Positions 7,933-24,843 of a stretch of 26,697 nucleotides of DNA are shown piece after piece. The position numbers were made by a program, and so were the translations under genes. Source of the stretch: a virus. The notes below the pieces were generated by a model. That model saw only the letters and a list, made by a program, of their open reading frames with translations. It made no database searches and was not told the origin of the DNA. Position 1 is the stretch's first letter, and each line of letters starts with the position of its first letter. The stretch covers positions 1-26,697 of IMG/VR virus record IMGVR_UViG_3300025769_000693. One strand, written 5' to 3'.

Positions 7933-8007
7933 GGCCGTGGGTTCCTATGGTGGGAAGCTTGACTGTCTATCAAGTCGCAGCGGGTTCAATTCCCGTCACG
8001 GTCGCCA
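7933..8007 (+). tRNA. tRNA-Asp (GUC)
   Basis: Acceptor stem GGCCGTG / CACGGTC, anticodon stem CTTGA / TCAAG with loop CTGTCTA giving anticodon GTC, T-loop TTCAATT, discriminator G and encoded CCA. Length is 75 bases with all four arms. Position 37 is T, which is unusual. It is the first tRNA of the cluster. Confidence 0.92.
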
Positions 8008-8076
8008 ATAGACGGATACGAGAATTACGAGTTCTCTCCGGTCCTGGTCAAGACGATAAACTGACCTCCTAATTTC

Positions 8077-8152
8077 GCGGGTATGCTGACGGGTTCAGTC
8101 CTCGGCCTTCCAAGCCGTAGTGTGTAGGGTTCGATTCCCTCTATCCGCTCCA
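8077..8152 (+). tRNA. tRNA-Gly (UCC)
   Basis: Acceptor GCGGGTA / TATCCGC with one G-U, anticodon loop CTTCCAA giving TCC, T-loop TTCGATT, encoded CCA; 76 bases. The 69-base spacer before it (8008-8076) holds a GAGAA-7 nt-TTCTC hairpin that looks like an orphan anticodon arm, but no complete tRNA can be folded there. Confidence 0.88.
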
Positions 8153-8159
8153 GAAAAAA

Positions 8160-8236
<77 letters not shown>

Positions 8237-8243
8237 ACAAAAT

Positions 8244-8320
8244 GCTTCCGTAGCATAACTGGATAATGCAGCCGACTTCTAATCGGCAGAGTCTGGGTTC
8301 GAGTCCTAGCGGGAGCGCCA
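8244..8320 (+). tRNA. tRNA-Arg (UCU)
   Basis: Regular 77-base tRNA. Acceptor GCTTCCG / CGGGAGC with one G-U, anticodon stem GCCGA / TCGGC with loop CTTCTAA giving TCT, T-loop TTCGAGT, discriminator G, encoded CCA. It reads AGA/AGG, codons that are rare in GC-rich hosts but common in these phage genes. Confidence 0.94.
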
Positions 8321-8331
8321 AATTTAAATGT

Positions 8332-8409
8332 GTGGGTGTAGTCCAACGGGTAGGAGACAACAGACTTAAAATCTGTACAGTGTGGGTTCGAATCCCACCG
8401 CCCACACCA
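8332..8409 (+). tRNA. tRNA-Leu (UAA) with a short variable loop
   Basis: Acceptor GTGGGTG / CGCCCAC, discriminator A, anticodon stem ACAGA / TCTGT with loop CTTAAAA giving TAA, T-arm GTGGG-TTCGAAT-CCCAC, encoded CCA; 78 bases. The variable region is only five bases (ACAGT), whereas bacterial leucine tRNAs normally carry a long variable arm and are about 85 bases. The anticodon-to-T-loop segment is shared with the following tRNA, indicating duplication. Leucine identity is deduced from the anticodon only. Confidence 0.87.
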
Positions 8410-8416
8410 AACATAT

Positions 8417-8494
8417 GCCCGAGTAGCCCAATTGACAGGAGGCGGCAGATTTAGGATCTGTACAGTGTGGGTTCGAATCCCTCCTCGGGCACCA
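8417..8494 (+). tRNA. tRNA-Leu (UAG) with a short variable loop
   Basis: Acceptor GCCCGAG / CTCGGGC, discriminator A, anticodon stem GCAGA / TCTGT with loop TTTAGGA giving TAG, encoded CCA; 78 bases. Like its neighbour it has a five-base variable loop (ACAGT). It shares an identical stretch from the 3' side of the anticodon stem through the T-loop (8456-8480) with tRNA-Leu(UAA). One mismatch (T-T) is present in the T-stem. The anticodon UAG reads CUA-type leucine codons. Confidence 0.85.
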
Positions 8495-8525
8495 AAAAAA
8501 GTTCAAAAAAGTTCAAAAAAGTTCA
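8494..8525 (+). repeat. 10-bp phased A-tract repeat upstream of a promoter
   Basis: GTTCAAAAAA occurs twice in tandem (8501-8520), followed by GTTCA and preceded by seven A. The A-tracts are spaced one helical turn apart and end about 10 bases before the -35 box at 8535. This is the arrangement expected for intrinsic bending or an UP element. Confidence 0.75.
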
Positions 8526-8534
8526 TTTTTCCTC

Positions 8535-8563
8535 TTGACGAATCATTTTCAAATGACTATATT
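8535..8563 (+). promoter_or_regulatory. Early-type promoter of 8593
   Basis: TTGACG (8535-8540), 17 bases, TATATT (8558-8563), then GTGTGTAAGAGAGAGAAAGG, the leader shared with the promoters at 7754, 9936 and 13249. The leader also supplies the ribosome site. Confidence 0.87.
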
Positions 8564-8592
8564 AAGTGTGTAAGAGAGAGAAAGGAAAACGA

Positions 8593-8946
8593 ATGGCTTA
8601 CATGTCTCAAGAGAAGAAAAAGGCACTTGCTCCCAAGATCAAAGCAGTTCTGAAAGAGTACGGAATGAAAGGCACCATCGGTGTTGACAATCATTCTTCG
8701 CTTGTTGTAAATATCCAGAGCGGTCCTTTGTTCGAAGATGTTGACGGAGATAGTCTGCAAGTGAATGTCTACTGGGTCAAAGATCATTACGAAGGCAAAG
8801 AACGGAGTTTCTTGATGAAACTGGTTGCCGCGATGAATGAAGGTAACTACAACAACTCTGATATCATGACTGATTATTTCGACGTGGGTTGGTACAACGA
8901 TATCAACATCGGCAAGTGGAACAAGAAGTATCGGTTCGCTGCTTAA
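8593..8946 (+). CDS. LPD29-like small phage protein
   Basis: This 117-residue protein starts MAYMSQEKKKALAPKIKAVL and contains the blocks YGMKGTIGVDNHSSLVVNI, NEGNYNNSDIMTDYFDVGWY and NIGKWNKKY. This pattern is common in phages, plasmids and bacteria as a small stand-alone protein related, as I recall, to the LPD29 domain of polyvalent proteins. Such proteins are often discussed as protective proteins carried by mobile elements, but their biochemistry is not settled. The start is ATG 8593 behind AGAAAGGAAAACG; ATG 8566 lies at the transcription start and is rejected. It sits inside the tRNA cluster under its own early-type promoter. Confidence 0.72.
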   Translation: MAYMSQEKKKALAPKIKAVLKEYGMKGTIGVDNHSSLVVNIQSGPLFEDVDGDSLQVNVYWVKDHYEGKERSFLMKLVAAMNEGNYNNSDIMTDYFDVGWYNDINIGKWNKKYRFAA

Positions 8947-8954
8947 AGTAAAAT

Positions 8955-9036
8955 GCAAGCGATGGCTATTGGGTTGCCCATCCGCTCATAACGGATTCCG
9001 AAAGGGGAGCAGGTTCGATTCCTGCCGCTTGCACCA
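8955..9036 (+). tRNA. tRNA with CAU anticodon and an extended variable arm
   Basis: Acceptor GCAAGCG / CGCTTGC, discriminator A, anticodon stem ATCCG / CGGAT with loop CTCATAA giving CAT, T-arm GCAGG-TTCGATT-CCTGC, encoded CCA; 82 bases. The variable region is 12 bases (TCCGAAAGGGGA) and can form a small hairpin. That makes the body class II-like, which neither methionine nor isoleucine tRNAs normally have. It could be elongator Met, Ile2 (if C34 becomes lysidine), or a leucine-type body with a changed anticodon. Confidence 0.83.
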
Positions 9037-9043
9037 AATTAAT

Positions 9044-9135
9044 GGAAGTGAGACTCGGTAGTCAGGAGACACTTATAAAGTCTTTAGCCCCAGATTAGGG
9101 TTCTTGAGAGGGTTCAACTCCCTCCACTTCTACCA
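9044..9135 (+). tRNA. Class II-like tRNA, apparent UAU anticodon (identity uncertain)
   Basis: Acceptor GGAAGTG / CACTTCT, discriminator A, T-arm GAGGG-TTCAACT-CCCTC and encoded CCA are clear; 92 bases. A long variable arm of about 24 bases includes stem AGCCC / GGGTT. The anticodon stem AGACA / AGTCT has an A-A mismatch at its last pair, and the loop CTTATAA gives anticodon TAT. The D-arm is weak. A class II tRNA with an Ile-type anticodon would be unusual, so this may be decaying or may have an odd fold. Confidence 0.65.
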
Positions 9136-9138
9136 AAA

Positions 9139-9168
9139 TAGTAGGTTAGATTCCTGCCGCTTGCGCCA
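9139..9168 (+). pseudogene. 3' tRNA remnant duplicated from the CAU tRNA
   Basis: The 29 bases ending in CCA at 9168 match the T-arm and acceptor 3' end of the CAU tRNA (9008-9036) at 26 positions. No D-arm or anticodon arm precedes it. It is a partial tRNA duplication, three bases after the preceding tRNA's CCA. Confidence 0.7.
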
Positions 9169-9217
9169 AACAAACAGAACAAGAAGCACTGAAAATTGCA
9201 CGGATTCGTAACTACAA

Positions 9218-9263
9218 CTCCCAGGCACGAAAGTAGTGAGTTCGACTCTCACCTGGGTCTCCA
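9218..9263 (+). pseudogene. tRNA-like minihelix or 3' tRNA remnant
   Basis: A good T-arm, GTGAG-TTCGACT-CTCAC (9236-9252), is followed by CTGGGTCT and CCA (9261-9263). The only partner for the acceptor strand is CCCAG at 9220-9224, so acceptor stem and T-arm are joined by just 11 bases with no D or anticodon arms. Either an internal deletion of a tRNA or a genuine tRNA-like hairpin. Confidence 0.5.
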
Positions 9264-9268
9264 ATATT

Positions 9269-9342
9269 GCTTCTATAGTTAAATGGTATAACATCGGCTT
9301 TGTAACCCGAAGTTTTCAGTTCGATTCTGAATGGAAGCACCA
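9269..9342 (+). tRNA. tRNA-Thr (UGU)
   Basis: Acceptor GCTTCTA / TGGAAGC, discriminator A, anticodon loop TTTGTAA giving TGT (last stem pair C-C mismatch), T-arm with TTCGATT, encoded CCA; 74 bases. It ends the tRNA cluster. Confidence 0.87.
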
Positions 9343-10614: not shown

Positions 10615-10647
10615 AAAAAAAGGAACTCTTTTGGGTTCCTTTTTTTT
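10614..10647 (+). terminator. Rho-independent terminator after tRNA-Ser
   Basis: AGGAAC (10621-10626) and GTTCCT (10635-10640) form a stem extended by A-runs and T-runs on both sides. The last T of the run is the first base of the TATAAATA late box. Confidence 0.9.
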
Positions 10648-10654
10648 ATAAATA
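10647..10654 (+). promoter_or_regulatory. T4-type late promoter (TATAAATA)
   Basis: Exact TATAAATA fused to the T-run of the preceding terminator and 29 bases before the start at 10683. Late promoters of this form need only the -10-like box in T4-type phages, with a gp55-like sigma and the sliding clamp. Confidence 0.85.
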
Positions 10655-10682: not shown

Positions 10683-11246
10683 GTGAAAAAATTTAAAGAT
10701 TTTAGACAAGAAAATTTGCAAGAAGGGGGTCCGTTGATGCCCTTGGTTGTGAAAGCGGCGGCAAAAAAAGTATTGCCCCCTCTTCTGTCGGCAAGCTCGC
10801 GGGCAATGACACACCCAAAAGTAATAAAGAATGCTACTAGATTTTTAGGTATAAGACCAGAAACTTGGGTCGGGGCCGCTACGGGTGCCGGCGCCCTCGC
10901 AAATTATTTAAGCAAAGAGCGCAAAACCAGGCACCCATCTAGAGACAGTCTGCGCTGGGGTGATCCTACAAAGTATCCAGGCGGAACGAGTCTGAAACCT
11001 TTCGGCGGAAAGGGGGATCATAAATATTCGAGGCCTTCAAGATTTAATGTCAATAATAACTTAAATAGTCCCACACCTGGTGTTGTAAACCTACCTAATG
11101 ACGGCAATACCATGGTTGATGATGAAGCACAATACAGAACGTTTCGCGCCGCGCATGGCACCGGCGGTGGTCCGCAAGTAATTACTCCTGGAACGGATCG
11201 TGATATTAACCGTAAAGCACCTAAACGACCGCAAGCGCCGAGATAA
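10683..11246 (+). CDS. Putative internal head protein with capsid-targeting-like N-terminus
   Basis: GTG start with GGAG about ten bases upstream. The 187-residue product begins MKKFKDFRQENLQEGG. This resembles the T4 capsid-targeting peptide (MKTYQEFIAEA), with a prohead-protease-like cleavage after LQE. The rest is basic and Gly/Pro/Asn-rich, with one moderately hydrophobic helix (WVGAATGAGALANYL, about residues 62-76) and low-complexity loops (NVNNNLNSPTPGVVNLPNDG). This composition suits a flexible packaged or ejected protein. It is the only gene between an exact late promoter and the early promoter at 11258. No enzymatic motif is seen. The packaging inference rests on the N-terminal pattern shared with 15234, 16327 and 19217. 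Confidence 0.72.
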   Translation: MKKFKDFRQENLQEGGPLMPLVVKAAAKKVLPPLLSASSRAMTHPKVIKNATRFLGIRPETWVGAATGAGALANYLSKERKTRHPSRDSLRWGDPTKYPGGTSLKPFGGKGDHKYSRPSRFNVNNNLNSPTPGVVNLPNDGNTMVDDEAQYRTFRAAHGTGGGPQVITPGTDRDINRKAPKRPQAPR

Positions 11247-15167: not shown

Positions 15168-15195
15168 GGGAGCGTTTGTTACGCTCCCTTTTTTT
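15168..15195 (+). terminator. Rho-independent terminator after the DUF932 gene
   Basis: GGGAGCGT (15168-15175) and ACGCTCCC (15181-15188) form an 8-bp perfect stem with a TTGTT loop, then seven T. The last T is the first base of the late box at 15195. Confidence 0.95.
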
Positions 15196-15202
15196 ATAAA
15201 TA
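15195..15202 (+). promoter_or_regulatory. T4-type late promoter (TATAAATA) of the internal-protein block
   Basis: Exact TATAAATA, continuous with the terminator T-run, 32 bases before the start at 15234. It probably opens transcription of the late block up to at least 20332. Confidence 0.88.
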
Positions 15203-15233: not shown

Positions 15234-16319
15234 ATGAAAAGTTTCAAGACGTTCTTAAATGAGGGGTTCACTCATTTTCCGAAATCCGAATCTGATATAG
15301 ACAATTTAAAATTTGTTCCAGACGATAAAAAGGAAAATCTCAAAAAACTTTTTGCTGAGTTGTCAATGAACAAATCCGGAATAAAAGACCCTATTGCTCT
15401 CGACGCTACTAAACCCAACATAATAAAATTAATAAGAGTCTTATCTTTCGATTACAACTTAAAATCATTGTCGAAAAAATACGGATTTTCGATAAGTGCT
15501 GGAAATGGTTCTCGCGGCGGAAAGGGGTCGGCTTCGAAAGGATTTGCTTTCGAAAATAATATCGTCAAGGATGTTAAGAAGTATAAAGAAGAAGGTTTGG
15601 ATGGCGATTTCATTTATCCCGACATGATGAAATCGATGCATGATGCATTTCTAAAAGATGCTAAAAAAATATCGGTAAAGTTAGATGGTGCTGCGAACAC
15701 GAAAAGACCTATATTTTTGACTGATGTTTCCATGCTTATCGGCGGACGAGATTTGCAAATCGGATCTAAAGTTACAGATGTTACGGTCACCGCTGATGGT
15801 AAACCCTATTATATTTCAGCAAAATATGGTGGTACAGTTACCTTTTTTAATTCGGGTGTTCGAAAAATATTTCCTCCAGCAGATTTCGAAAAAGGATCAT
15901 TTAAAAACCGAGAAGCAAAAATTCTATTGAATGCATTTGGTATCGACGAACAAAAATTTATTGAAATTTTTTCTAGTTATGATAGATCCAAACCTTCAAA
16001 AGCAAAAAAAATCAGAGTTAATGCAACAGGTAAGGCGAATAAAAGACTTTTACAACAACTTCTTTTATCTGGTGTAGGTTATGGTTATTGGATGGCACAC
16101 CGCCGAGGAAAAAATGTAGAATTTTATGAGATGACTCGTCGAAAAATGATAGACTCGGCGAAAATATCTAAAGTCACGATATTGTATCCTCAACCCGGAT
16201 CAGCAAAACGAATAGACATTGAAGTGCTAACACCTCGCTATGAATTTAAAATAAATATTAGAAACAAACAAGGCGGGTTATATCCAACTCACATCATGGC
16301 AGATTACAAATATAGGTAA
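15234..16319 (+). CDS. Capsid-targeted protein, possible PD-(D/E)XK nuclease or KxDG protein
   Basis: The 361-residue product begins MKSFKTFLNEG, closely matching the T4 capsid-targeting peptide; prohead protease cleavage would fall after FLNE. The body has GSASKGFAFENNIVKDVKKY (Glu107), then TDVTVTADGKPYYISAKYGG (Asp182, Lys197). This spacing of a helix Glu, a strand Asp and an x-x-K strand fits the restriction-nuclease (PD-(D/E)XK) fold, though the usual Glu before Lys is replaced by Ser-Ala. It also holds SVKLDGA (147-153), similar to SVKWDGA of the next gene, so a nucleotidyltransferase relationship is an alternative. First gene after a late promoter, with a 7-base gap to the next. Packaging is inferred; the enzyme class is uncertain. 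Confidence 0.72.
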   Translation: MKSFKTFLNEGFTHFPKSESDIDNLKFVPDDKKENLKKLFAELSMNKSGIKDPIALDATKPNIIKLIRVLSFDYNLKSLSKKYGFSISAGNGSRGGKGSASKGFAFENNIVKDVKKYKEEGLDGDFIYPDMMKSMHDAFLKDAKKISVKLDGAANTKRPIFLTDVSMLIGGRDLQIGSKVTDVTVTADGKPYYISAKYGGTVTFFNSGVRKIFPPADFEKGSFKNREAKILLNAFGIDEQKFIEIFSSYDRSKPSKAKKIRVNATGKANKRLLQQLLLSGVGYGYWMAHRRGKNVEFYEMTRRKMIDSAKISKVTILYPQPGSAKRIDIEVLTPRYEFKINIRNKQGGLYPTHIMADYKYR

Positions 16320-16326
16320 AATTCTA

Positions 16327-17544
16327 ATGATATCCTTCAAATCCTTTCTAGCAGAACAAAAGAACACACATATGACGCACATCGATGATGCTATCATCTA
16401 TGGTGGCGTCAGTGGTGCCAGACAAGCAATCAATGCGATTCGTTCGTTTCGGGATATGCTTCAAGGCCATCATTCTGGTTCCGTATCAGTAAAATGGGAT
16501 GGAGCTCCTGCTATCTTTGCAGGAACTGATCCTTCTGATGGTAAGTTCTTTGTCGCTAAAAAGGGCATCTTTGCCAAGAATCCTAAAGTCTATAAAACAC
16601 CTCAAGAGATTGATGCAGACACTTCAGGCGATCTTGCAGCAAAATTGAAACTTGCTTTACAACACCTACCTTCACTTGGCATCAAAGGTGTCATTCAGGG
16701 CGATTTCTTATTCGCTCAAAACGATCTAAAAAAGGACAAGATTGATGGAGAAGATTTTATCACTTTTCATCCCAACACCATTGTTTATGCCGTTCCAGCA
16801 AATACGCCAATGGCAAAAGATATCGCGTCGGCGAAACTGGGGATTGTCTGGCACACAACATATAAAGGATCAACATTCGAGTCAATGAGAGCGTCATATG
16901 GCGTCAATGTGAACAAGTTTAGATCATCAAGTGCTGTATGGTCGCAAGATGCTTTCCTGAGAGACCTGACGAATGCTACCATGTCAGAATCCGAGACAAA
17001 GATGGTCAATGCTTATCTTTCTGTTGCTGGCAAGATATTCAATAAAATATCAGGATCGACATTACGAGAACTTGAAGCACATCCAGAGTTACCAAGATTG
17101 ATTGAACAATACAACAACACATTTGTTCGAAGTGGTCAAGTCATTCAAGACACCGCAAAGCATACGAACAATTTGATATTATGGATACAGAGAAAGTTTC
17201 ATGATGAAATATCGCAACTGAAAACAGAAAAAGGTAAAACGCCTAGAAGAGAAAAACTGGCAAATATCATGACATTTTTCTCGACCAGAAACAAGATTTC
17301 TATAAAACTGTTGTTCGATTTTCAAAAAGCAATCATAGATGCAAAACTAATTATTATAAATATACTTAATAGATTGTCGAAAGTCAAGACTTTCGTAAGA
17401 ACAAATAGAGGATACAAGACTACTGGCCCTGAAGGTTATGTTGCGATAGACAAACTTTCTGGTTCAGCATTAAAAATTGTTGATAGAATGGAGTTTTCTT
17501 ATAACAACTTCTCGCCGGACATTGTGAAAGGTTGGGAAAAATAA
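16327..17544 (+). CDS. Capsid-targeted KxDG nucleotidyltransferase (nucleic-acid ligase-like)
   Basis: The 405-residue product begins MISFKSFLAEQ, another capsid-targeting-like peptide with a predicted cut after FLAE. SVSVKWDGAPAIFAG (52-66) contains the KxDG motif I of covalent nucleotidyltransferases (Lys56 would carry AMP). Later motifs plausibly follow: FFVAKKGIFAKN (74-85), GVIQGDFLFAQ (121-131, motif III/IIIa-like) and LGIVWHTTYKG (171-181, motif IV-like). The C-terminal half is helical and lacks a recognisable OB fold. The family includes DNA and RNA ligases; similar proteins occur in T4-like marine phages without proven substrate. It lies between two other CTS-type genes. Ligase activity is a motif-based prediction; packaging is inferred. 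Confidence 0.78.
   Translation: MISFKSFLAEQKNTHMTHIDDAIIYGGVSGARQAINAIRSFRDMLQGHHSGSVSVKWDGAPAIFAGTDPSDGKFFVAKKGIFAKNPKVYKTPQEIDADTSGDLAAKLKLALQHLPSLGIKGVIQGDFLFAQNDLKKDKIDGEDFITFHPNTIVYAVPANTPMAKDIASAKLGIVWHTTYKGSTFESMRASYGVNVNKFRSSSAVWSQDAFLRDLTNATMSESETKMVNAYLSVAGKIFNKISGSTLRELEAHPELPRLIEQYNNTFVRSGQVIQDTAKHTNNLILWIQRKFHDEISQLKTEKGKTPRREKLANIMTFFSTRNKISIKLLFDFQKAIIDAKLIIINILNRLSKVKTFVRTNRGYKTTGPEGYVAIDKLSGSALKIVDRMEFSYNNFSPDIVKGWEK
17355..17362 (+). promoter_or_regulatory. Late-box match inside the ligase-like gene
   Basis: Exact TATAAATA about 205 bases before the 17567 start, within coding sequence in an AT-rich stretch. It could boost the downstream internal-protein genes, or be chance. 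Confidence 0.25.
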
Positions 17545-17566
17545 ATCAAATGGGGTACAAATAAAA

Positions 17567-18127
17567 ATGAACAATAAACAAAAAATTGCCGAGGCTAAAG
17601 CAAGAGTAAGTCAACTTACCGAAAATCGAATCAACATTTATGATCTTCGTTTGAATGAATCTTTGAACTTGACTGAGAAGAAAAAGAAACTGGATCCAGT
17701 TGACGCAAAAGAGTTAGAAGGTGACTGGGAAGATCGCCTAGACGCTGATATTGACAATGATGGTGACGAAGATGAATCGGATGAATATCTGCACAATCGT
17801 CGTAAAACAATCAAGAAAGCGATGAAGAAAGAGGAAAAAGAATGTGATTGTGATATGGAAGATGATGACGAACATGACGAAGATTGTCCTATGTATAAAA
17901 TGAAGAAAGAATCAATTGATGAAGCAACCATCGACTACAAAGTTAATGTAGACGGTCTTCCACCTATGTTTATTGACGCAAAGAACCCAGGCGAAGTGAA
18001 GATGAAACTCCGTAAACTGCTTCGTAGACCAGATTCGATTGGCGATGTTACAAGAATCACTAAGACGGACCTGAAGAAATATTTCCGGATCAAAGGTATG
18101 GGTAAAGATCCAGAAGCAGTGGAATAA
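17567..18127 (+). CDS. Acidic EF-hand-like internal protein
   Basis: The 186-residue product has three parts. The N-terminus contains repeated protease-like sites (QLTEN, RLNESLNLTEKK). The middle has an EF-hand or dockerin-like loop, DIDNDGDEDESDEYL (61-75), followed by a Cys/Asp/His cluster (CDCDMEDDDEHDEDC). After SIDEA comes a basic C-terminal domain with LPPMFIDAKNPGEVKMKLRK and a predicted nucleic-acid-binding character. Calcium or divalent-metal binding is plausible because all odd loop positions are Asp. The x-L-x-E sites suggest processing by the prohead protease during head maturation. It is four bases from the next late gene. Similar acidic EF-hand-like proteins occur near head genes of marine T4-like phages, from memory. 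Confidence 0.72.
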   Translation: MNNKQKIAEAKARVSQLTENRINIYDLRLNESLNLTEKKKKLDPVDAKELEGDWEDRLDADIDNDGDEDESDEYLHNRRKTIKKAMKKEEKECDCDMEDDDEHDEDCPMYKMKKESIDEATIDYKVNVDGLPPMFIDAKNPGEVKMKLRKLLRRPDSIGDVTRITKTDLKKYFRIKGMGKDPEAVE

Positions 18128-18131
18128 TCCT

Positions 18132-19220
18132 ATGGATAAGTTAAACTTCAAAGATTTTGTAGCACATTTCGATCCGGATCGTGATGATCCTGATGGTTAC
18201 TTTCAACATAGAATGAGAAGACGTAGGTCTGGTGTTCTTGGCGAGAGAACATTAACTCCTGATGAAAAAAAGAAACGCGAAGAGATTGCCAAAGCAATAG
18301 AAAGGGACCATCCAGATATGCCTATGTCTAAGAAGATGGCGATTGCTACTGCGGCCGCGAAACGAGTTACTGAAGGTCTTTTACCTTCTATTAATCCTGA
18401 TACTCAAATGGGAAAAATTTCAGTCGGAACGGATGAATCGCGTTCTCTTCGCGCTAAAATGTGGAGAGCAAAAAAAGCAGGAAACTTGGCACTATGGAAT
18501 AAACTGAATGCGGAACTTCAAGCATTAGCACACAAAAAAGCGGCAATGAAAGAAGAAGTCAACCTTGATGAAGGTAAGAAACTTGGACTCTGGGATCGTA
18601 TTCGTAAAAAACGCGAAAGAGGTGAACCTCCCGCAAAACCAGGTGAAGAAGGATATCCAAGCAAAGAAGCGTGGAAAAGACTCACAAAAGAAGATGTTCA
18701 ACTAGATGAGATTTCCGCATATCTTGCTGATCGTGCTAGAAAGAAAGCAAAAGAAGATTTAGAAAAAGAATGGGAAAGAAAACCAAAGACGCCTGAAGAG
18801 GCTGAAAAATCTATGGAGAAAATGCACCGTAGATTAAGACAACACGGTAAGTTTCTTAATTATAAACCAAGAAATGAAGATGTTGAACTTGATGAAGCGT
18901 TGAATATGGCACAAAGACTCAAAAGAGCCAGAATTATGAAAAGGGTTCATAAGAAGATTGAGATGGGTCAAAAAAGAGCCAAGCGCCGAATGGCAAATAT
19001 GGAAACTTTGAAGCGTAGAGCAATCAAGACTGCTAGAAAATTCATTCTTAAAAGACTGACTAAAGGTATACCAAAAGAAGAACTCTCGCCAGCAAGAAAG
19101 CAGGAACTTGAAAAGAAATTGAATACTCCTGCTATGAAAAAACGAATTCAAATGGTAGCAATGAAAATGCTCAAAGACGTTCGTAAAAGAGAAGTTGAGA
19201 GACACAGAGCGAAACAATGA
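18132..19220 (+). CDS. Basic internal head protein with repeated LDE processing-like sites
   Basis: The 362-residue product is extremely rich in Lys, Arg and Glu and almost entirely helical, with no hydrophobic core pattern. It starts MDKLNFKDFVAHF, a variant of the capsid-targeting pattern. Four similar short sites divide it: VTEG (79-82), EEVNLDEG (141-148), EDVQLDEI (187-194), EDVELDEA (249-256). These fit the T4 gp21 preference L/I-x-E, so the protein may be cut into basic fragments of about 45-110 residues that bind packaged DNA. The fragments would parallel the T4 internal peptides or core protein. The region 100-130 contains SRSLRAKMWRAKKAGNLALW, a compact basic helix. The stop overlaps the next start (ATGA). 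Confidence 0.75.
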   Translation: MDKLNFKDFVAHFDPDRDDPDGYFQHRMRRRRSGVLGERTLTPDEKKKREEIAKAIERDHPDMPMSKKMAIATAAAKRVTEGLLPSINPDTQMGKISVGTDESRSLRAKMWRAKKAGNLALWNKLNAELQALAHKKAAMKEEVNLDEGKKLGLWDRIRKKRERGEPPAKPGEEGYPSKEAWKRLTKEDVQLDEISAYLADRARKKAKEDLEKEWERKPKTPEEAEKSMEKMHRRLRQHGKFLNYKPRNEDVELDEALNMAQRLKRARIMKRVHKKIEMGQKRAKRRMANMETLKRRAIKTARKFILKRLTKGIPKEELSPARKQELEKKLNTPAMKKRIQMVAMKMLKDVRKREVERHRAKQ

Positions 19221-20332
19221 AAAGTTTTTCTAGATACTTAGTTGAAGGCAAGAGTGCCATTACTTTCTCCTTTGGTCGGTTGAATCCCCCGACTATTGGT
19301 CATGGTAAGTTATTAGATAAAATGAAATCTGTATCTGGTCCTAATCAGTATAGAATGTATTTGTCGCAATCGCATGACCCCAAAAAGAACCCATTATCTT
19401 ATCGCGATAAAGTCAAATGGGCGAGAAAGATGTTTGCGAAACATGGTAGATCAATTATATACGATCCGAAACTGATCAATGTATTTGATATTGCCACAAA
19501 GTTACACAACGAAGGTTTCACGGATATCACGATGGTTGTTGGCTCGGACAGAATTCGTGAATTCAATATTCTATTGAACAAATATAATAATGTCAAGGGG
19601 CGGCACGGATTCTACAACTTCAAATCCATCAATGTTGTTTCTGCGGGAGAAAGAGATCCTGATGCTGAAGGTGTGACTGGTATGTCGGCATCTAAAATGA
19701 GAGCCGCTGCTGGAGACAATGATTTCTCATCATTCTCAAAAGGCATACCGTCCGAGATTTCTTTGAAAGACTCAAAGAAAATGTTCAACGATGTTCGTCT
19801 TGGTATGGGTCTCAAAGAATCCACGAACTACAGAAATCATGTTAGATTAGACAAAGTATCTGATGCCCGTGAACAATACATCAAAGGTGATTTGTATCTT
19901 CCTGGTGATTTGGTAGAAGATAAAGATGGTAATGAATATGTCGTATCATATTGTGGTGCCAATTATCTTATCGTTGAAGATGCGAAAGGTAACCAATCTC
20001 GTAAATGGTTGAATGATGTTTCCATGATAGAAGAAAAGACAGACAGATGGTATAAAGACAAACCCGAATGGGGAACACCAGAAGCATCTAAAAAGGCGAG
20101 AAAACTGACACCTGGACAAGAAAAGCGCGATATTGTAGAGACAAGAGGCAAATTCTATTATGCCAAATTAAGATCACAGAAAAACAGAGAAAAAGTTGAA
20201 AAAGTTCTTGGGGCCAGAAAAAATTTGATAGGAAAAAACCAATCTGCCGAAAGAGATGACAGAGAATTGGATAATGCTAGAATAAATGATTTCAGAGAAA
20301 AACTGAAAAGAAGAATTGATCCAAATGCGTAA
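19217..20332 (+). CDS. Capsid-targeted HIGH-motif nucleotidyltransferase (cytidylyltransferase-like)
   Basis: The 371-residue product begins MKSFSRYLVEG, a capsid-targeting-like peptide with a cut predicted after YLVE. Immediately after it is a complete nucleotidyltransferase domain: FSFGRLNPPTIGHGKLLDKM (17-36) with the TIGH (HxGH-type) motif, ITMVVGSDRIREF (104-116), and VTGMSASKMRAAA (153-165), equivalent to the ISSTxxR motif. This fold adenylylates or cytidylylates small phosphates; NMN adenylyltransferases and glycerol-phosphate cytidylyltransferases belong to it. The C-terminal half has a small beta domain (YLPGDLVEDKDGNEYVVSY) and a basic helical tail. The first motif Gly-Arg-x-Asn-Pro-Pro resembles NMNAT-type enzymes, so NAD metabolism is possible. 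The substrate is unknown. Overlaps the upstream gene by four bases. Confidence 0.85.
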   Translation: MKSFSRYLVEGKSAITFSFGRLNPPTIGHGKLLDKMKSVSGPNQYRMYLSQSHDPKKNPLSYRDKVKWARKMFAKHGRSIIYDPKLINVFDIATKLHNEGFTDITMVVGSDRIREFNILLNKYNNVKGRHGFYNFKSINVVSAGERDPDAEGVTGMSASKMRAAAGDNDFSSFSKGIPSEISLKDSKKMFNDVRLGMGLKESTNYRNHVRLDKVSDAREQYIKGDLYLPGDLVEDKDGNEYVVSYCGANYLIVEDAKGNQSRKWLNDVSMIEEKTDRWYKDKPEWGTPEASKKARKLTPGQEKRDIVETRGKFYYAKLRSQKNREKVEKVLGARKNLIGKNQSAERDDRELDNARINDFREKLKRRIDPNA

Positions 20333-20375
20333 CTTATACGAAATCTCACAAAAAAACTGACAAAATATATAAAGA

Positions 20376-20480
20376 ATGCCACAAAAGACGAAGAATAATG
20401 CGAAAACGATATTGCCAACATATGATCAACTCGTCAAGGAAAAAGAAAGACGAGAGGCCAGAAAAAGAGGGGCTAGCTAG
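20376..20480 (+). CDS. Possible small basic protein, 34 aa
   Basis: ATG 20376, preceded by TATATAAAG, opens a 34-codon frame with a very basic product (MPQKTKNNAKTILPTYDQLV, then KEKERREARKRG). It fills much of the 230-base gap between the nucleotidyltransferase and the 20564 gene. The ribosome site is weak. The composition fits a small internal virion peptide. The remaining gap (20481-20563) contains only a 12-codon frame and the ribosome site of the next gene. Confidence 0.38.
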   Translation: MPQKTKNNAKTILPTYDQLVKEKERREARKRGAS

Positions 20481-20563
20481 GGCAATGCTGGCAAGACATG
20501 AAAAAAAACATAATTCTGAGTGATTACATATTTCATAATTAGAACATTTTAGGAGAAATATTT

Positions 20564-20764
20564 ATGAACCCAGATGATAACGAACAGTTATTACAAAAGT
20601 TATACACAAAAGTAGAACTCTTGATTTACAGAACTGAGAGATTAGAAAAAGAGCATCAAGAATTATTTTCTTACATCAAGAAAGTAATATGGCTTATTAT
20701 TAGTATTTTAATTGCCGGTATCATGGCCTTTGTGTTAAATGGAGGACTTAACGTTGTTAACTAA
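20564..20764 (+). CDS. Small membrane protein with coiled-coil head
   Basis: AGGAGAAATATTT gives an excellent ribosome site. The 66-residue product has an acidic helical N-terminus with heptads (LLQKLYTKVELLIYRTERLE) and one transmembrane helix at about residues 42-62 (VIWLIISILIAGIMAFVLNG). This architecture occurs in phage holin- or antiholin-like and envelope proteins. The neighbouring gene also encodes a membrane protein. A role in lysis is possible but spanins lie 4 kb downstream. The end overlaps the next gene by 11 bases if TTG 20754 is its start. Confidence 0.72.
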   Translation: MNPDDNEQLLQKLYTKVELLIYRTERLEKEHQELFSYIKKVIWLIISILIAGIMAFVLNGGLNVVN

Positions 20765-21215
20765 TAAAATATTCAGATTTTTATTTAAACCAACATTCAA
20801 TAAACTTTTTGTGGTTCTGATTATTCTTGCTTTCTTTCCAGTATATTGGCCAAAGCTGCCGATCCTAGAAGGCAAATGGTTGCCAGTTACAACAAAAATG
20901 AAAGTTATAGATCATTCAAATTCAGAAGATGGTAGCCTTATATTATATGTGGATTTTAAGAAAATAAGAAACTGTGCATATATTGGTATGTTTGCATCAG
21001 CAAAAAACGAAAAATTGAACATTGAGTTTAGTGATGACCAAGGGCAGACGGATAGCACAAGACCTATAGGAACTTATGTTGCTGGTCCGTGGATTTTTTC
21101 GTGGGGGTCGCCCGAATACAAAAAATATGAAATTATATCAAAAGGTGATCTAAAAATAACTTTAAGACATAATTGTCACCCATTTTGGAACACATTAACA
21201 GAATTTTATCCATGA
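20754..21215 (+). CDS. Membrane-anchored protein, probable TTG start
   Basis: The frame is open from ATG 20739, but GGAGGA at 20741-20746 is placed exactly for TTG 20754, while no site precedes 20739; TTG is preferred. The 153-residue product has one N-terminal membrane helix (LFVVLIILAFFPVYW), then a mostly beta extracytoplasmic domain containing two Cys (IRNCAYIGMFA, RHNCHPFW). They could form a disulfide in the periplasm. No family is recognised. It is coupled to the small coiled-coil membrane protein just upstream, suggesting they act together at the inner membrane. Confidence 0.65.
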   Translation: MLTNKIFRFLFKPTFNKLFVVLIILAFFPVYWPKLPILEGKWLPVTTKMKVIDHSNSEDGSLILYVDFKKIRNCAYIGMFASAKNEKLNIEFSDDQGQTDSTRPIGTYVAGPWIFSWGSPEYKKYEIISKGDLKITLRHNCHPFWNTLTEFYP

Positions 21216-21227
21216 AGTTATCTAAAC

Positions 21228-21235
21228 TATAAATA
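21228..21235 (+). promoter_or_regulatory. T4-type late promoter (TATAAATA)
   Basis: Exact TATAAATA 22 bases before the start at 21257, immediately after the 21215 stop. It likely starts the second late sub-block, 21257-24843. Confidence 0.85.
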
Positions 21236-21256
21236 CAAATAAAAAGGAATTGTAAC

Positions 21257-22075
21257 ATGAACAAAGAACTTATGGACGAAATCATCGAGGCTTACATGGA
21301 AGAAAATGGTCTAGATGATATTTCAGAACAAGATTATGACGAAATCGCCGAGGCGTATTTGTATTTCACGGAAAAATCCGCCGAAATAAAAATTCCCAGT
21401 ACCACTGGAAGAGGCTCTGGCGGCACAGACGATCCCCGGAATCCACGATACTTAGGTTATACGTTATCGTCGCCACCAAAAAAACCTGGATATTCGATCA
21501 CAAAAGATCAGCCGCCGAAAAAACAGACAAATCCGACAAGCCTGCGGGTGCCAAGACCAAAATCACGACCCAACGATCTCGCTAAGTCGTCTACTACTTC
21601 TACTACTTCTGCTACTCAACCAAAAAGTTTCGCTGACGCTTTTAGAATTGCTCGTAAAAAGCAAGGTGGGGCCGGGGGTGTATTCAAGTGGAAGGGTAAA
21701 GAATATCAAACGAATATAGCTGGTGAAAAATATGTCAAGAACCCAACACAAATAACATTCGGAGAATCTGCCGGCGCTGATCACGGTAATATGAACAACG
21801 GGTCACCAAGAGGTGAAGGTCTTTCCCCTTCAGCAAAAAGAGAGATGGACCGGCAAACTCCAATGCCAAAAGATGTGAACGAACCTGAAGTAGAAAAAAG
21901 AACTTGGGATGCGTTCCGTGCCACGAATGTCAAAGTTGCTGCCGGTCGTAGAGGAGATTCCTCAAAAGGTGATAAGAAAATCATCAACAAACCTGAAGAC
22001 ATTACAGCAAGAGCATCAAGAAAAGAAGATGATGGTTTCAAGACTGGTCAGGTTGATGTGTCGGTAAAGGCATAA
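21257..22075 (+). CDS. Late structural or internal protein with SFADAFRIARKK motif
   Basis: The 272-residue product has an acidic helical N-terminus (MNKELMDEIIEAYMEENGLD) and a long Pro/Ser/Thr/Lys-rich disordered stretch (about residues 45-120). Then comes SFADAFRIARKKQGGAGGVF with KWKGKEYQTN, and a basic, disordered C-terminus. The 'sFa.AF..ARK..G.G..F.W.GK.Y.T' module recurs in structural and internal proteins of many T4-like marine phages, from memory; its role is unknown. FGESAGADHG is a candidate protease site. AAAAGGAATTGTAAC precedes the start. It is the first gene after a late promoter. A virion protein is likely; an enzyme is not indicated. Confidence 0.72.
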   Translation: MNKELMDEIIEAYMEENGLDDISEQDYDEIAEAYLYFTEKSAEIKIPSTTGRGSGGTDDPRNPRYLGYTLSSPPKKPGYSITKDQPPKKQTNPTSLRVPRPKSRPNDLAKSSTTSTTSATQPKSFADAFRIARKKQGGAGGVFKWKGKEYQTNIAGEKYVKNPTQITFGESAGADHGNMNNGSPRGEGLSPSAKREMDRQTPMPKDVNEPEVEKRTWDAFRATNVKVAAGRRGDSSKGDKKIINKPEDITARASRKEDDGFKTGQVDVSVKA

Positions 22076-22078
22076 GTC

Positions 22079-22396
22079 ATGGCTATATCACCTCCAAACT
22101 GGGCAAAACATGCTGTGCCTTCGCCAAATGGTTGGAGACATCCTCGCACGGGAGAGATGTTGAAGCCTGCTAGGATTTCGCAAGAAGATATTGATGAATT
22201 TTATGGAGTGAAAGAAGAAATGATTCCAACACCGCAAATGCTAACAGAAGCACCAACATCAGAAGAAGATTTTGTTTTGGAACATATGACAAAGGTAGAA
22301 CTTGAAGAAGTCGCAAGAACAAAAGGCGTTGAACTTGATCGTAGACTTCGTAAAGAGACGCTTCTGGAACAAGTTAAGAGTTTATTCGGGAGATAA
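22079..22396 (+). CDS. Small late protein with SAP/HeH-like C-terminus
   Basis: The 105-residue product starts AISPPNWAKHAVPSPNGWRH-type sequence followed by TGEMLKPARISQEDIDEFYG, an N-terminal block I recall from many T4-like cyanophages. The C-terminal 38 residues (MTKVELEEVARTKGVELDRR, then LRKETLLEQVKSLF) match the helix-extended-loop-helix SAP/Rho-N pattern used for nucleic-acid binding. QMLTEAP in between could be a protease site. It lies three bases after the previous stop. A DNA-binding virion component is a reasonable inference. Confidence 0.75.
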   Translation: MAISPPNWAKHAVPSPNGWRHPRTGEMLKPARISQEDIDEFYGVKEEMIPTPQMLTEAPTSEEDFVLEHMTKVELEEVARTKGVELDRRLRKETLLEQVKSLFGR

Positions 22397-22398
22397 AA

Positions 22399-22647
22399 AT
22401 GTCTTTACGCAATACGAGATCATTCAATCCTATGACGGGCCGCAGAACTGGCGCATACTCTAGAATATCAAATCCTGCCGGCGGTGAAGAATATCTTGCG
22501 CATTTGCGAAAGTTGAAGGGAAAATATCATGAACGTAAGGCGAAAGAGACAGAGGGTAAAGACCGGAAATTTCATGAACATATGGCGAAGAGTCTTTTGG
22601 GTGAGGCCTCGGCAGTTGATCTAATTACTGGAAAAAAAGAGAAGTAG
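22399..22647 (+). CDS. Small basic late protein, 82 aa
   Basis: The 82-residue product is strongly basic, beginning MSLRNTRSFNPMTGRRTGAY, then a helix (EYLAHLRKLKGKYHERKAKE), and ends near KSLLGEASAVDLITGKKEK. LLGE followed by AS is a plausible prohead-protease site near the C-terminus. GATAAAA precedes the start, two bases after the previous stop. It resembles small internal or core proteins of T4-like heads in size and charge. No enzymatic motif is present. Confidence 0.68.
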   Translation: MSLRNTRSFNPMTGRRTGAYSRISNPAGGEEYLAHLRKLKGKYHERKAKETEGKDRKFHEHMAKSLLGEASAVDLITGKKEK

Positions 22648-22650
22648 ACA

Positions 22651-22722
22651 ATGTTCAGGTCAATAATCCAGCAATTTTTAACTAGAGGATTAGATCCGAA
22701 CTTTAAAACAAAATTTAGATAA
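22651..22722 (+). CDS. Possible 23-aa micro-ORF
   Basis: A 23-codon frame starts three bases after the previous stop and ends ten bases before the next gene. The peptide (starting MFRSIIQQFLTRGLDP) is basic and amphipathic. It has no clear ribosome site except GAGAAG within the upstream gene. It exactly fills an otherwise empty gap, but chance is possible. Confidence 0.28.
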   Translation: MFRSIIQQFLTRGLDPNFKTKFR

Positions 22723-22732
22723 AAATAAAACT

Positions 22733-23116
22733 ATGAATAACGATGATTTGAATAATATTTTGGAAGATGATTTGATAGAATACGCCGCATTACATTATTA
22801 TACTCCAAAGGGAATTGACATTGAGGAATTTTATGATGATTTGAAACGATTCAAATACGTCAAGAGATTATTGAATCGTTATTATGATACAGGTGATTTA
22901 CCAGAAAGACTTATTCTAAATCATTTGATTGTGATATTTAATGTATTTGGTTATGAAGCGGGTCTTAAAATATTAAATGTCAAGATTGAGGCAATACACT
23001 GGAATGCATTAAAGCCATTTTTGATATTTTTAGAAGCGATAAGAAATGATCAATACACAAACATACCCATGGACCAACATGTCGTGGAAAAACTGAGAGA
23101 GATAAAGAGATGTTAG
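22733..23116 (+). CDS. DUF7207-like T4-like phage protein
   Basis: A 127-residue soluble helical protein. The block EFYDDLKRFKYVKRLLNRYY followed by LPERLILNHLIVIFNVFGYE and a C-terminal helix is characteristic of a small protein found next to head or replication genes in many T4-like marine phages (I associate it with DUF7207). No biochemical role is known to me. The last seven bases overlap the start of the kinase gene, so the two are coupled. It lacks CTS-like features. Confidence 0.72.
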   Translation: MNNDDLNNILEDDLIEYAALHYYTPKGIDIEEFYDDLKRFKYVKRLLNRYYDTGDLPERLILNHLIVIFNVFGYEAGLKILNVKIEAIHWNALKPFLIFLEAIRNDQYTNIPMDQHVVEKLREIKRC

Positions 23117-24843
23117 AAGAAGAACAAATTTTAGAAGGCGTCAACGATCCCGCAATATTCAAAGCAGTATTTTTAGCGGGCGGACCGGGTTCTGGAAAAT
23201 CTTTTATTGTAGGTAAAACTGCTTTAGGTCCATTGGGTTTTAGAGTTGTGAACTCAGACGATGCTTACGAAATCAAACTTGCTCAAGCAGGTATGAAACC
23301 AACACCCGAAAATATCTATTCGCCTAAAGGACAGGATATTCGGGACAGAGCAAAAGCATTAACCGCCAAAAAACAGAAACTTTATCAAAAGGGTCGTCTT
23401 GGTATTGTCATTGACGGTACTGGTAGAGACATAAACAAAATCAAAAAACAAATATCCCAGTTTCAAAAAATCGGATATGAAATAGCGATGATTTTTGTCA
23501 ATACGGATTTAGATACTGCTTTATTGAGAAACAGACAAAGAGCAAGAACATTACCCGATAAACAAGTCAAGGATATGTGGCTTGAAGTTCAAAAGAATAT
23601 TGGCGCATTTCAAAAAATGTTTGGTCGTCAAAACTTTTTTGTCGTTGATAATAGCGAAGGATCGAACTGGAACCAACAAACTACGAATGTTTACAAGAAG
23701 ATCAGTGATTGGTCTAAGAAACCAGCAGATACAAAAGCAGCAAAAGACTGGATTAAAGCACAAAGAAACATGAGTGAATCCCTTGCCGTAGGATTTAATA
23801 CTCCTCACGGAAAGAGAAGCGATTTCAGAAATCTTATATTAAAACATCTCAACAAGAAAGTAAAATCTGACAAATCCAATAGACAATCCTTGAGAGGGCA
23901 TATACTGGATATTAAAAGATCAGTAAATACAGACCTTTCAGTAAAAGAAATAGAGAGGTTATACAATACCATGAGAAAAAGAGGTTTAACTGAAGGTAAA
24001 TATACCGATGAAATGCGGGCAAAATTAGCGAATAAGATTGCCGCTCACAACGCTGAAATGCAAAATCAAATAGATGCATACAAAAAAATGACCCCGGACG
24101 AGCGAAAGACGCATAATGCCAGGGCCGCAAAACAGGCAGAAGCGAATTGGAAGAAAGGGAAAGCGGAACTGGCCAAACAGCAGCAAAGTACCTTGCGATT
24201 GAGGTCTGGTCAACTTGTTCCTGATACTGGGGGAAAAGCGTCTGGAACTCTCAAATTAAAAGACACACATAGAGTTGACACCAACAAACCTAAACCACGC
24301 CCAACTTTAGGTGGTGTAACAAGAACTCCACCTGAAGGCAAAATAAAATTTGGACAACAAGGTGATGGTGGTTTTCCGAAAGTTGGTGGTGGCAGAGGGG
24401 CATCCGCTCCGAATCTTGGCCGCGGATTTATCAAGAGGTTATTAAATATAGAATCATATGATCATCTTTATGAAGAAGAAGCGGGAGCAGCACCAAGTAA
24501 TACGGCGGCATCTGCTGGAATTCCTGCTGATACTGCGAACATGGGACCAAACAAGAAAAAGAAAAAAAAGATAAGTGAAATCCTCCGAAGATATAATATT
24601 AATATGAAAGAAGATGTGACACGGGATACTGCAATATATCGTCCAGATGCTACTGGAAAATTCACAACAACTCCTGAAGTTCGTCCGGAACCAAGACCAA
24701 CATCAGCCCCCAAAACATCACCAAGACCTAAGACCAGACCAACATCAGCCCCCAAAACATCACCAAGACCTATGACCAGATCAATGAAATATGGGTCAGG
24801 TGCTTATCACGGTCAAAGGAATTATTTTCCACCCGCACCTTAA
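23110..24843 (+). CDS. P-loop kinase (zeta toxin/PNK-like) with disordered tail, likely virion-packaged
   Basis: The 577-residue product has MLEEEQILEGVND at its N-terminus; ILE-G fits a prohead-protease cut. The kinase domain follows: Walker A FLAGGPGSGKSF (21-32), catalytic-type VNSDDAYE (47-54), GIVIDGTGRD (98-107), and a lid with arginines RNRQRARTLPDKQV (140-153), then NFFVVDNSE. This order matches zeta-toxin and polynucleotide-kinase-like P-loop phosphotransferases. Zeta toxins phosphorylate UDP-GlcNAc; PNKs phosphorylate 5'-OH nucleic-acid ends; neither can be chosen from sequence. The C-terminal two thirds are basic and disordered, with protease-like sites (RGLTEGKY, LNIESYD) and two 14-residue PTSAPKTSPRP-type repeats. 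Coupled to the upstream gene by overlap. Kinase domain confident; packaging inferred. Confidence 0.85.
   Translation: MLEEEQILEGVNDPAIFKAVFLAGGPGSGKSFIVGKTALGPLGFRVVNSDDAYEIKLAQAGMKPTPENIYSPKGQDIRDRAKALTAKKQKLYQKGRLGIVIDGTGRDINKIKKQISQFQKIGYEIAMIFVNTDLDTALLRNRQRARTLPDKQVKDMWLEVQKNIGAFQKMFGRQNFFVVDNSEGSNWNQQTTNVYKKISDWSKKPADTKAAKDWIKAQRNMSESLAVGFNTPHGKRSDFRNLILKHLNKKVKSDKSNRQSLRGHILDIKRSVNTDLSVKEIERLYNTMRKRGLTEGKYTDEMRAKLANKIAAHNAEMQNQIDAYKKMTPDERKTHNARAAKQAEANWKKGKAELAKQQQSTLRLRSGQLVPDTGGKASGTLKLKDTHRVDTNKPKPRPTLGGVTRTPPEGKIKFGQQGDGGFPKVGGGRGASAPNLGRGFIKRLLNIESYDHLYEEEAGAAPSNTAASAGIPADTANMGPNKKKKKKISEILRRYNINMKEDVTRDTAIYRPDATGKFTTTPEVRPEPRPTSAPKTSPRPKTRPTSAPKTSPRPMTRSMKYGSGAYHGQRNYFPPAP
24694..24777 (+). 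repeat. 42-bp tandem repeat inside the kinase gene
   Basis: Two direct copies of a 42-base unit (24694-24735 and 24736-24777) differ at one position, encoding the 14-residue unit RPTSAPKTSPRPKT with a K/M change. Length in multiples of three keeps the frame. The near identity implies a recent duplication, and copy number may vary. Confidence 0.9.

Follow-up and report, generated by a model that had tools for sequence, protein, structure and literature searches.

The IMG/VR record IMGVR_UViG_3300025769_000693 (26,697 nucleotides; the whole stretch analysed, called the window below) is a 26.7-kb record of an uncultured marine phage of T4-like type. Among isolates, its nearest relatives are phage C48C1, Pelagibacter phage HTVC008M and Methylophilales phage Melnitz. 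No near-identical DNA was found among phage isolates. Four genes, A (15234–16319), B (16327–17544), C (19217–20332) and K (23110–24843), are the subject of this analysis and lie on the + strand, as do the promoter cores and the other genes placed below between 10647 and 24843. The products of A, B, C and probably K are read, with a probability of about 0.6, as internal head proteins (cargo) of the phage. A is taken as one representative of a hypervariable slot whose many cargo proteins can replace one another and are mostly nuclease-like. Proteins A, B and C begin with peptides resembling the capsid-targeting sequence (CTS) of T4, and enzymes with this tag are probably injected with the viral DNA. 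Overall, an enzyme-rich, hypervariable marine version of the T4 internal head proteins is the best-supported verdict. A first-pass annotation of the same DNA had drawn the block from 16327 to 24843, a span that takes in B, C and K but omits gene A, which belongs to the same block.

Targeting peptides, late promoters and virion proteomes

Studies of T4 have shown that ten such N-terminal residues suffice for capsid targeting, that residues 4 and 7 weigh most, and that the protease gp21 cleaves after L/I-x-E (PMC9026906). The start of T4 ipII and ipIII, read from the T4 genome, is MKTYQEFIAE↓A (the arrow marks the end of the peptide). A of the window begins with MKSFKTFLNE↓G (15234–15263; residues 1–10, then Gly), B with MISFKSFLAE (16327–16356) and C with MKSFSRYLVE↓G (19217–19246), and all three have aromatic residues at positions 4 and 7. 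An L/I-x-E site ends the peptide at residue 10 in A (LNE↓G) and C (LVE↓G), and B has LAE↓Q; K has ILE↓G at residue 9 (23128–23136), directly before its kinase domain. Cleavage at these sites is predicted. The pattern M-x(1-3)-[FY]-x-x-[FYW]-[LIVM]-x-E was used to search for the tag. Among 33 T4 genes tested as a positive control it selected only ipII and ipIII, and it occurred at 0 of 4,087 internal Met positions of other open reading frames (ORFs) and nowhere inside the A, B, C and K proteins. In C48C1 it was present in 3 of 124 coding sequences, against 0.04 expected from shuffles, and a fourth case, the C of this phage, is hidden by a late start. Of the homologues with a complete N-terminus, 84 of 120 B proteins and 95 of 115 C proteins carried the strict pattern, and the kinase domain of the K homologues was directly preceded by [LIM]xE↓G/A in 64 of 75 cases, often with a full tag (MKSFKTFLDE↓GVND). 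The sampled loci yielded 274 unique tag-bearing ORFs in 29 CTS families, including nuclease-like, HNH-like and nucleotidase-like proteins.

Late expression fits the A-B-C run, since TATAAATA, the T4 late promoter core, sits just upstream at 15195–15202, 31 nt before A at the head of the run. The window contains five matches to TATAAATA against 1.37 expected, and every one of them is on the + (coding) strand; besides the one before A, matches lie at 10647–10654, 28 nt before the gene at 10683–11246, and at 21228–21235, 21 nt before position 21257. Among related loci, 31 of 160 CTS-bearing ORFs had the motif no more than 80 nt away, compared with 2% of random 80-nt stretches.

Mass spectrometry has detected homologues of C in four cyanophage virions: S-SM1 (T4-GC190), S-SZBM1 (140), S-SCSM1 (91) and S-CREM2 (154) (PMC3037559, PMC9146016, PMC9602691, PMC10665884). 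The link to T4-GC190 of S-SM1 comes from P-HM1_162, a GC190 member that belongs to the C family. The other three carry the tag, as MRFRQFIIE↓A in S-SZBM1_140, MKSFLQFLKE↓A in S-SCSM1_91 and MKNFSSFLTE↓A in S-CREM2_154. In addition, S-SCSM1_90, a protein of the variable slot before B with the motif PADIYV..GVSLKK, is annotated as a virion protein, as are proteins 89, 92 and 93. In S-SZBM1 the tagged C was detected and B (141), which has no tag, was not, a single case that goes in the right direction for the tag reading. The first-pass proposal of a packaged-protein block thus gains from the T4-like tags on A, B and C and from the C homologues in four virion proteomes. Its statement that such a kit had not been described did not hold, since NMNAT-like (nicotinamide mononucleotide adenylyltransferase-like) and kinase-like virion proteins of cyanophages and their possible action at entry have already been published; the T4 targeting sequence is known as well. 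Apparently new, within the open-access literature searched, are four points: that this block carries the targeting sequence, that B and C form a fixed and sometimes fused pair, that C and K occur as polyproteins, and that a variable, nuclease-like slot precedes B. No mention of DUF6267, the Pfam family of B, was found in the literature searched, and 'capsid targeting sequence' and 'cyanophage' occurred together only in a T4 review. As a separate observation, the cargo proteins include a third kind of nucleotidyltransferase: the virion-detected hypothetical protein gp156 of S-CREM2 (locus L134, 11013–11726) is of the pol-beta type (Pfam NTP_transf_2, 3.4e-4).

Several points weigh against packaging of the whole set and against its reading as enzymes. 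K of the window has no aromatic CTS residues, although its ILE↓G site is present. B of the cyanophages S-PM2, P-HM1 and S-SZBM1 is untagged, which means that B is not packaged in every phage, and B has been seen in no virion, with the S-SZBM1 protein looked for and not detected. Two of the mass-spectrometric studies give only 2–3 peptides for C, and the authors caution about carry-over from the lysate. The locus sample was seeded by these genes themselves, catalysis is read from motifs only, and a Foldseek comparison of the B model with solved structures gave no significant ligase match (best E 0.6).

The conserved B-C pair and its optional kinase

Related loci were found in IMG/VR by searching with these same genes, and the proportions for B, C and K therefore describe linkage and not prevalence. 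In loci with enough sequence, B was accompanied without exception by a same-strand C (87 of 87 cases, at a median gap of 473 nt), and a B lay upstream of each C (90 of 90); the pair was also found in a Vibrio Straboviridae phage. The two form a single polypeptide in S-PM2_138 (591 aa) and metaG-MbCM1_189 (728 aa, with the tag in mid-protein). B and C probably act as one unit, because they are always neighbours and can be one polypeptide. C and K are likewise fused in loci L120, L121, L124, L183, L186, L198, L213, L218, L222 and L246, with a protease-like site ahead of the kinase and with the domain order of NadR. Of 49 B loci with 7.5 kb of downstream sequence, 8 had K, several of them near-copies of the window that amount to fewer independent contigs; of 23 long K loci, 12 had B or C. 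The search for K in C48C1, the nearest complete relative, gave no match. The linkage of three genes expected in the first-pass annotation therefore stands for B and C and for the fusions, but a conserved three-gene kit was rejected, with K as an optional member. The B-C fusion of metaG-MbCM1 (L142, 2354–4540) is annotated as 'NrdB ribonucleotide reductase A subunit'.

Gene C encodes a protein of 371 aa that alignment and modelling place among NMNAT-like nucleotidyltransferases of the HIGH superfamily, with a tail module WGTPEx..LTPGQ. The motifs TIGH and GMSASKMR named earlier are present in this ORF (FGRLNPPTIGH, GMSASKMR), and F19, R21, P24, H29, S157 and R162 are invariant. They correspond to the HxGH-type (PPTIGH) and ISTxxR-type (MSASKMR) motifs, the first His being Thr in most members. 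C matched phage 'cytidyltransferase' families (phrog_395, E 6.5e-71), and the NCBIfam NadD/NadR NMNAT models were among its best named relatives. The model of C (predicted local distance difference test score, pLDDT, 84.8) had NaMN/NMN (nicotinic acid or nicotinamide mononucleotide) adenylyltransferases as its best PDB matches (E 1.1e-4, probability 1.00, template modelling score ~0.6). The predicted structure thus has the NMN/NaMN-adenylyltransferase fold and points to nicotinamide adenine dinucleotide (NAD) or other dinucleotide cofactor chemistry, with NAD rebuilding by C a possible function. A side observation concerns the C48C1 cytidyltransferase (CDS0089, L002 10622–12031), whose deposited start lies inside the catalytic motif, 22 codons too late; the upstream start restores both the motif and a targeting sequence, MIKNFSQYLLE.

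Gene K encodes 577 aa, and Pfam and alignment place residues 7–219 with P-loop kinases of the zeta/AAA_33/PSTK type (PSTK being L-seryl-tRNA(Sec) kinase), followed by a long basic tail. GGPGSGKS (residues 24–31) and the arginine lid were found in the ORF as first described, and the Walker A stretch G24–K30, the catalytic D50 and the lid residues R140, R144 and R146 are invariant in nine homologues. The Pfam matches were AAA_33 (6.3e-12) and zeta toxin (2.4e-8), with no equivalog cut-off reached in the K comparison. K resembles adenylate kinase, PSTK, zeta and T4 polynucleotide kinase (PNK) at a similar, modest level; the profile match to T4 PNK has an E of 0.0008, and adenylate kinase and PSTK match better. 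The Pfam scan of K found no PNK phosphatase domain. In the jumbo Agrobacterium phage Atu_ph07 (L007, 6257–8593), a domain resembling an ADP-ribosyltransferase by eye, with no Pfam match, is fused ahead of the K kinase.

T4 Ip1-3 have been reported to inhibit type IV restriction, which makes a counter-defence role of the packaged enzymes a reasonable idea, because injected proteins of such a class can be counter-defence (PMC12373910). In one specific form, C would remake NAD+ at DNA entry against NAD-depleting defences, with K as a NadR-like nucleoside kinase. This is a tentative and on balance unlikely explanation. It gains from the fold of C, its NadD/NadR relatives and the NadR domain order of the C-K fusions. 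Rebuilding of NAD by phages is an established strategy (PMC12774641), and virion NMNAT-like proteins have already been proposed to act on NAD. However, K is of the zeta/AAA_33/PSTK type and not of the NadR ribosylnicotinamide kinase family: AAA_28 matched 1 of 9 homologues at 0.002, and no NadR appeared in the PDB search. The equation of C-K with NadR was therefore rejected, though the domain order fits. Moreover, none of the scanned window proteins was recognised as NAMPT-like, the TxGH/HxGH variation ties C to no one substrate, and B and the nuclease slot are left without a role.

The variable slot before B and the ligase-like features of B

Gene A encodes 361 aa with a PD-(D/E)XK-like arrangement recognised by alignment (phrog_8438). 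The E..D..(D/E/S)xK active-site pattern is present, and E107, D182, S195 (in S195-x-K197) and K197 do not vary among eight homologues. A had no Pfam, PDB or defence-library match, so its assignment as a nuclease is based on these motifs. The gene directly before B fell into 19 unrelated clusters in 96 loci, and several of them, A included, show the pattern D..(I/V)S(L/V)K or D..ExK, as PD-(D/E)XK nucleases typically do. The sequences thus describe a hypervariable and often nuclease-like slot, although the biggest cluster upstream of B (42 loci) is a virion structural protein and not a nuclease. Some CTS proteins resemble HAD nucleotidases or ADP-ribosyltransferases. The slot protein of locus L123 (5414–6562; tag MKNFKRFITE) looks like an ADP-ribosyltransferase by eye and had no Pfam match. 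Alt of T4 is an ADP-ribosyltransferase.

A second explanation is host take-over or attack, in which the conserved pair and the kinase would assist a hypervariable set of nucleases that, on entry, cut the DNA of the host or of competitors. The many slot families with D..(I/V)S(L/V)K or ExK motifs, the other CTS proteins that look like HNH proteins, HAD nucleotidases or ADP-ribosyltransferases, and the annotation of S-SCSM1_90 as a virion protein are consistent with this, but the nuclease call for A comes from motifs with no Pfam or PDB match behind it. In addition, S-SZBM1_142 was undetected by mass spectrometry, and the 42-locus cluster is structural. On balance, host take-over or attack is unlikely.

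Gene B encodes 405 aa, belongs to Pfam DUF6267 (E 7.7e-101) and looks, from its motifs, like a divergent covalent nucleotidyltransferase with KWDG, QGD, EGYVAI and LKIVDR. The KWDG reported earlier is at residues 56–59 of the ORF. Invariant residues in 23 homologues, down to 27% identity and including a Vibrio phage, are K56, W57, D58 and G59 (in K56-W-D-G-A-P), D126, E369, G370, K383 and R387. Motif I KxDG (K56–G59) and motif IV EGxV (E369–V372) are therefore both present and invariant. In contrast, the Glu of motif III is an invariant Asp126, and motif V reads K383-I-V-D-R387 in place of KxK, with K383, V385 and R387 invariant. A helical block is inserted between motifs IIIa and IV, and only about 18 residues remain after motif V, so that B has no ligase C-terminal domain (OB or other). 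The motif IV–V stretch aligned with Rnl1 of phage RaK2 (EGYVAIDKLSGSALKIVDR vs EGFVAVLKDGTMFKIKTDW). The catalytic residues of B, C and K, whose loss would have spoken against enzymes, are invariant among homologues.

Comparisons beyond these motifs gave little for B. Its predicted structure had a pLDDT of 83.7, and ligases or ligase adenylation domains recurred in the top 50 Foldseek matches with E from 0.6 to 3.5. Of the structural likenesses foreseen in the first-pass annotation, that of C to NaMN/NMN adenylyltransferases was borne out, and that of B to ligases stayed at the best E already given. Profile alignments of B with Rnl1, Rnl2, ATP (adenosine triphosphate) ligases and LigA in hhalign were below 1%, and a control alignment of Rnl1 with Rnl2 failed likewise. 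B against PDB sequences gave only coiled-coil-type artefacts, and the RaK2 Rnl1 search of viral contigs returned only itself. Homologues of B in cellular genome bins (36 matches, mostly marine metagenome-assembled or single-cell genomes) are read as phage contigs binned with their hosts, not each of them checked. The motif layout of B is that of covalent nucleotidyltransferases, and B may work like a ligase. As a side observation, the B gene of S-MbCM6 is split into two ORFs (L006, 4860–5072 and 5184–5795) by a frameshift, an insertion or decay.

Repair of nucleic-acid ends had been put forward for kinase and ligase together: K would restore 5' phosphates and B would reseal RNA or DNA cut by host defence, as do Pnkp and Rnl1 of T4. 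Motif I KWDG, motif IV EGYVA, the likeness of the IV–V stretch to RaK2 Rnl1 (EGFVAV..FKIK), the several ligases in the Foldseek list and the match of K to T4 PNK favour this idea. It is nevertheless doubtful, for B has Asp in motif III, KIVDR for KxK and an end soon after motif V. K lacks the PNK phosphatase domain and has better matches elsewhere, B and K are not consistently together, and C would have no obvious role. Enzymes of the HIGH superfamily mostly act on small molecules, and because C is one of them, plain end repair fails to explain the constant B-C pair. Equally doubtful is a structural or relic role, in which these would be head core or scaffold proteins whose enzyme motifs no longer matter, or virion detection would be carry-over: the long basic tails, the shared short modules, the assembly role of T4 IPIII (PMC9026906) and the caution voiced in the virion reports speak for it, but B, C and K keep their catalytic residues without change across large divergence, unlike relics, and the tag is attached to many unrelated enzyme-like families.

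Bacterial LigA takes adenosine monophosphate (AMP) from NAD+. A long shot for the pair is that B and C form an injected self-recycling nucleotidyltransferase, in which B would take AMP from NAD+ and free NMN, and C with ATP would remake NAD+. Such a loop would account for the fixed pairing and the B-C fusion. If true, it would work in an NAD-depleted cell and would be delivered with interchangeable nuclease cargo.

The reading of A, B, C and probably K as internal head proteins suggests the following course. The genes would be transcribed late from TATAAATA promoters, an N-terminal peptide of T4 internal-protein type would direct the products into the prohead core, a gp21-type protease would remove the peptide after L/I-x-E, and the cargo would be ejected together with the DNA. 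The conserved core would be B, as a divergent ligase-like nucleotidyltransferase, and C, as an NMNAT-like adenylyltransferase, with K as an optional partner of C. The best guess for their job is that they process nucleotides or nucleic acids within minutes of the start of infection: A-type nucleases would attack or trim DNA, B would transfer a nucleotidyl group and C would make or recycle a dinucleotide cofactor. T4-like phages that infect Prochlorococcus, Synechococcus and SAR11-type bacteria abound in the sea, and hundreds of their genomes have the B-C pair. With a readable tag, proteins so far called 'hypothetical' become candidates for injection that can be tested (the 29 CTS families), and the recurrence of NMNAT-like proteins in the virion proteomes of cyanophages finds one reason. 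A general question also comes within reach of experiment, namely whether pre-made enzymes serve marine phages to disarm the host or to take it over ahead of phage gene expression.

Neighbouring features and comparison with known systems

Other features of the window include a small basic protein (10683–11246) with the N-terminus MKKFKDFRQENLQE↓G and a protease-like site at residue 14, a possible further cargo protein. The protein at 17567–18127 has the module DxDNDGDxDxSDxYLxxRRK in common with the virion-detected S-SCSM1_92, and the basic protein at 18132–19220 has the prohead-protease-like sites NLDE↓G and ELDE↓A and the shared module RGEPPAKPGE. The tails of cargo proteins in marine phages shuffle short modules of this kind (DNDGDxDxSDxYL, RGEPPAKPGE, WGTPE..LTPGE, GTQP, AAWRTGHRPG, KGGKxVPNC), seen here in these last two proteins and in the tail of C; they perhaps serve in head retention or as cleavable linkers. 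The gene at 22733–23116 is, by Pfam and phrog matches, DUF7207 / phrog_407, a kept neighbour in many cyanophages. The contig also has an alphaproteobacterial-type permuted transfer-messenger RNA (tmRNA) at 2589–2953 (Rfam alpha_tmRNA 107 bits, tmRNA_permuted 110 bits) with the tag ANDNFAPRAYALAA, and seven tRNA genes in 1.4 kb at 7933–9342 (Asp, Pro, Arg, Leu x2, Met, Thr). At its left edge the contig cuts off a tyrosyl-tRNA synthetase gene of which most is present (2–817; Pfam PF00579, 4.3e-44); it is either a host gene carried by the phage or the result of a join in assembly. A comparison with PADLOC gave no weighty match to a named anti-phage defence system.

Each of the proteins has partial counterparts among known enzymes. 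B shares with RNA and DNA ligases (Rnl1, Rnl2, DNA ligase I, LigA) the motifs KxDG and EGxV and a downstream Lys in register, with a motif IV–V spacing close to that of RaK2 Rnl1, but differs from them in the Asp of motif III, KIVDR in motif V, the helical insert between IIIa and IV, the missing C-terminal domain and the lack of a significant profile or fold match. C has the fold and signature motifs of the adenylyltransferases NadR and NadD/NadM, with Thr as the first HxGH residue in most members, and the kinase of NadR is unlike K, which is of zeta/AAA_33/PSTK type. K has the Walker A GGPGSGKS, the catalytic Asp in VNSD and the arginine lid of zeta toxin, T4 PNK and L-seryl-tRNA(Sec) kinase, whereas the K group forms its own clade, with an EGVNDPxIFKA prefix and a protease-like site and with no PNK phosphatase domain.

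Among virion proteins, the NMNAT/cytidylyltransferases of S-SM1, S-SCSM1, S-SZBM1 and S-CREM2 are direct homologues of C, found by mass spectrometry and proposed to act at entry; the accessible parts of those papers do not report the targeting sequence, the fixed DUF6267 pairing, the fusions or the nuclease slot. We know of no sequence relation between the Dar proteins of phage P1 and A, B, C or K. The Dar proteins are similar in being head-associated and tied to defence against restriction (PMC12810830). The closest likeness is to IPI, IPII, IPIII and Alt of T4, with the same N-terminal pattern (MKTYQEFIAE↓A of ipII/ipIII compared with MKSFKTFLNE↓G and MKSFSRYLVE↓G) and the same L/I-x-E processing logic (PMC9026906). 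The cargo is hypervariable in both, and the ADP-ribosyltransferase-like CTS protein of L123 recalls Alt. Unlike the T4 internal head proteins, the marine cargo consists mostly of larger, enzyme-like proteins; B and C form a conserved pair in it, and it includes polyprotein-like fusions with protease-like sites between their domains.

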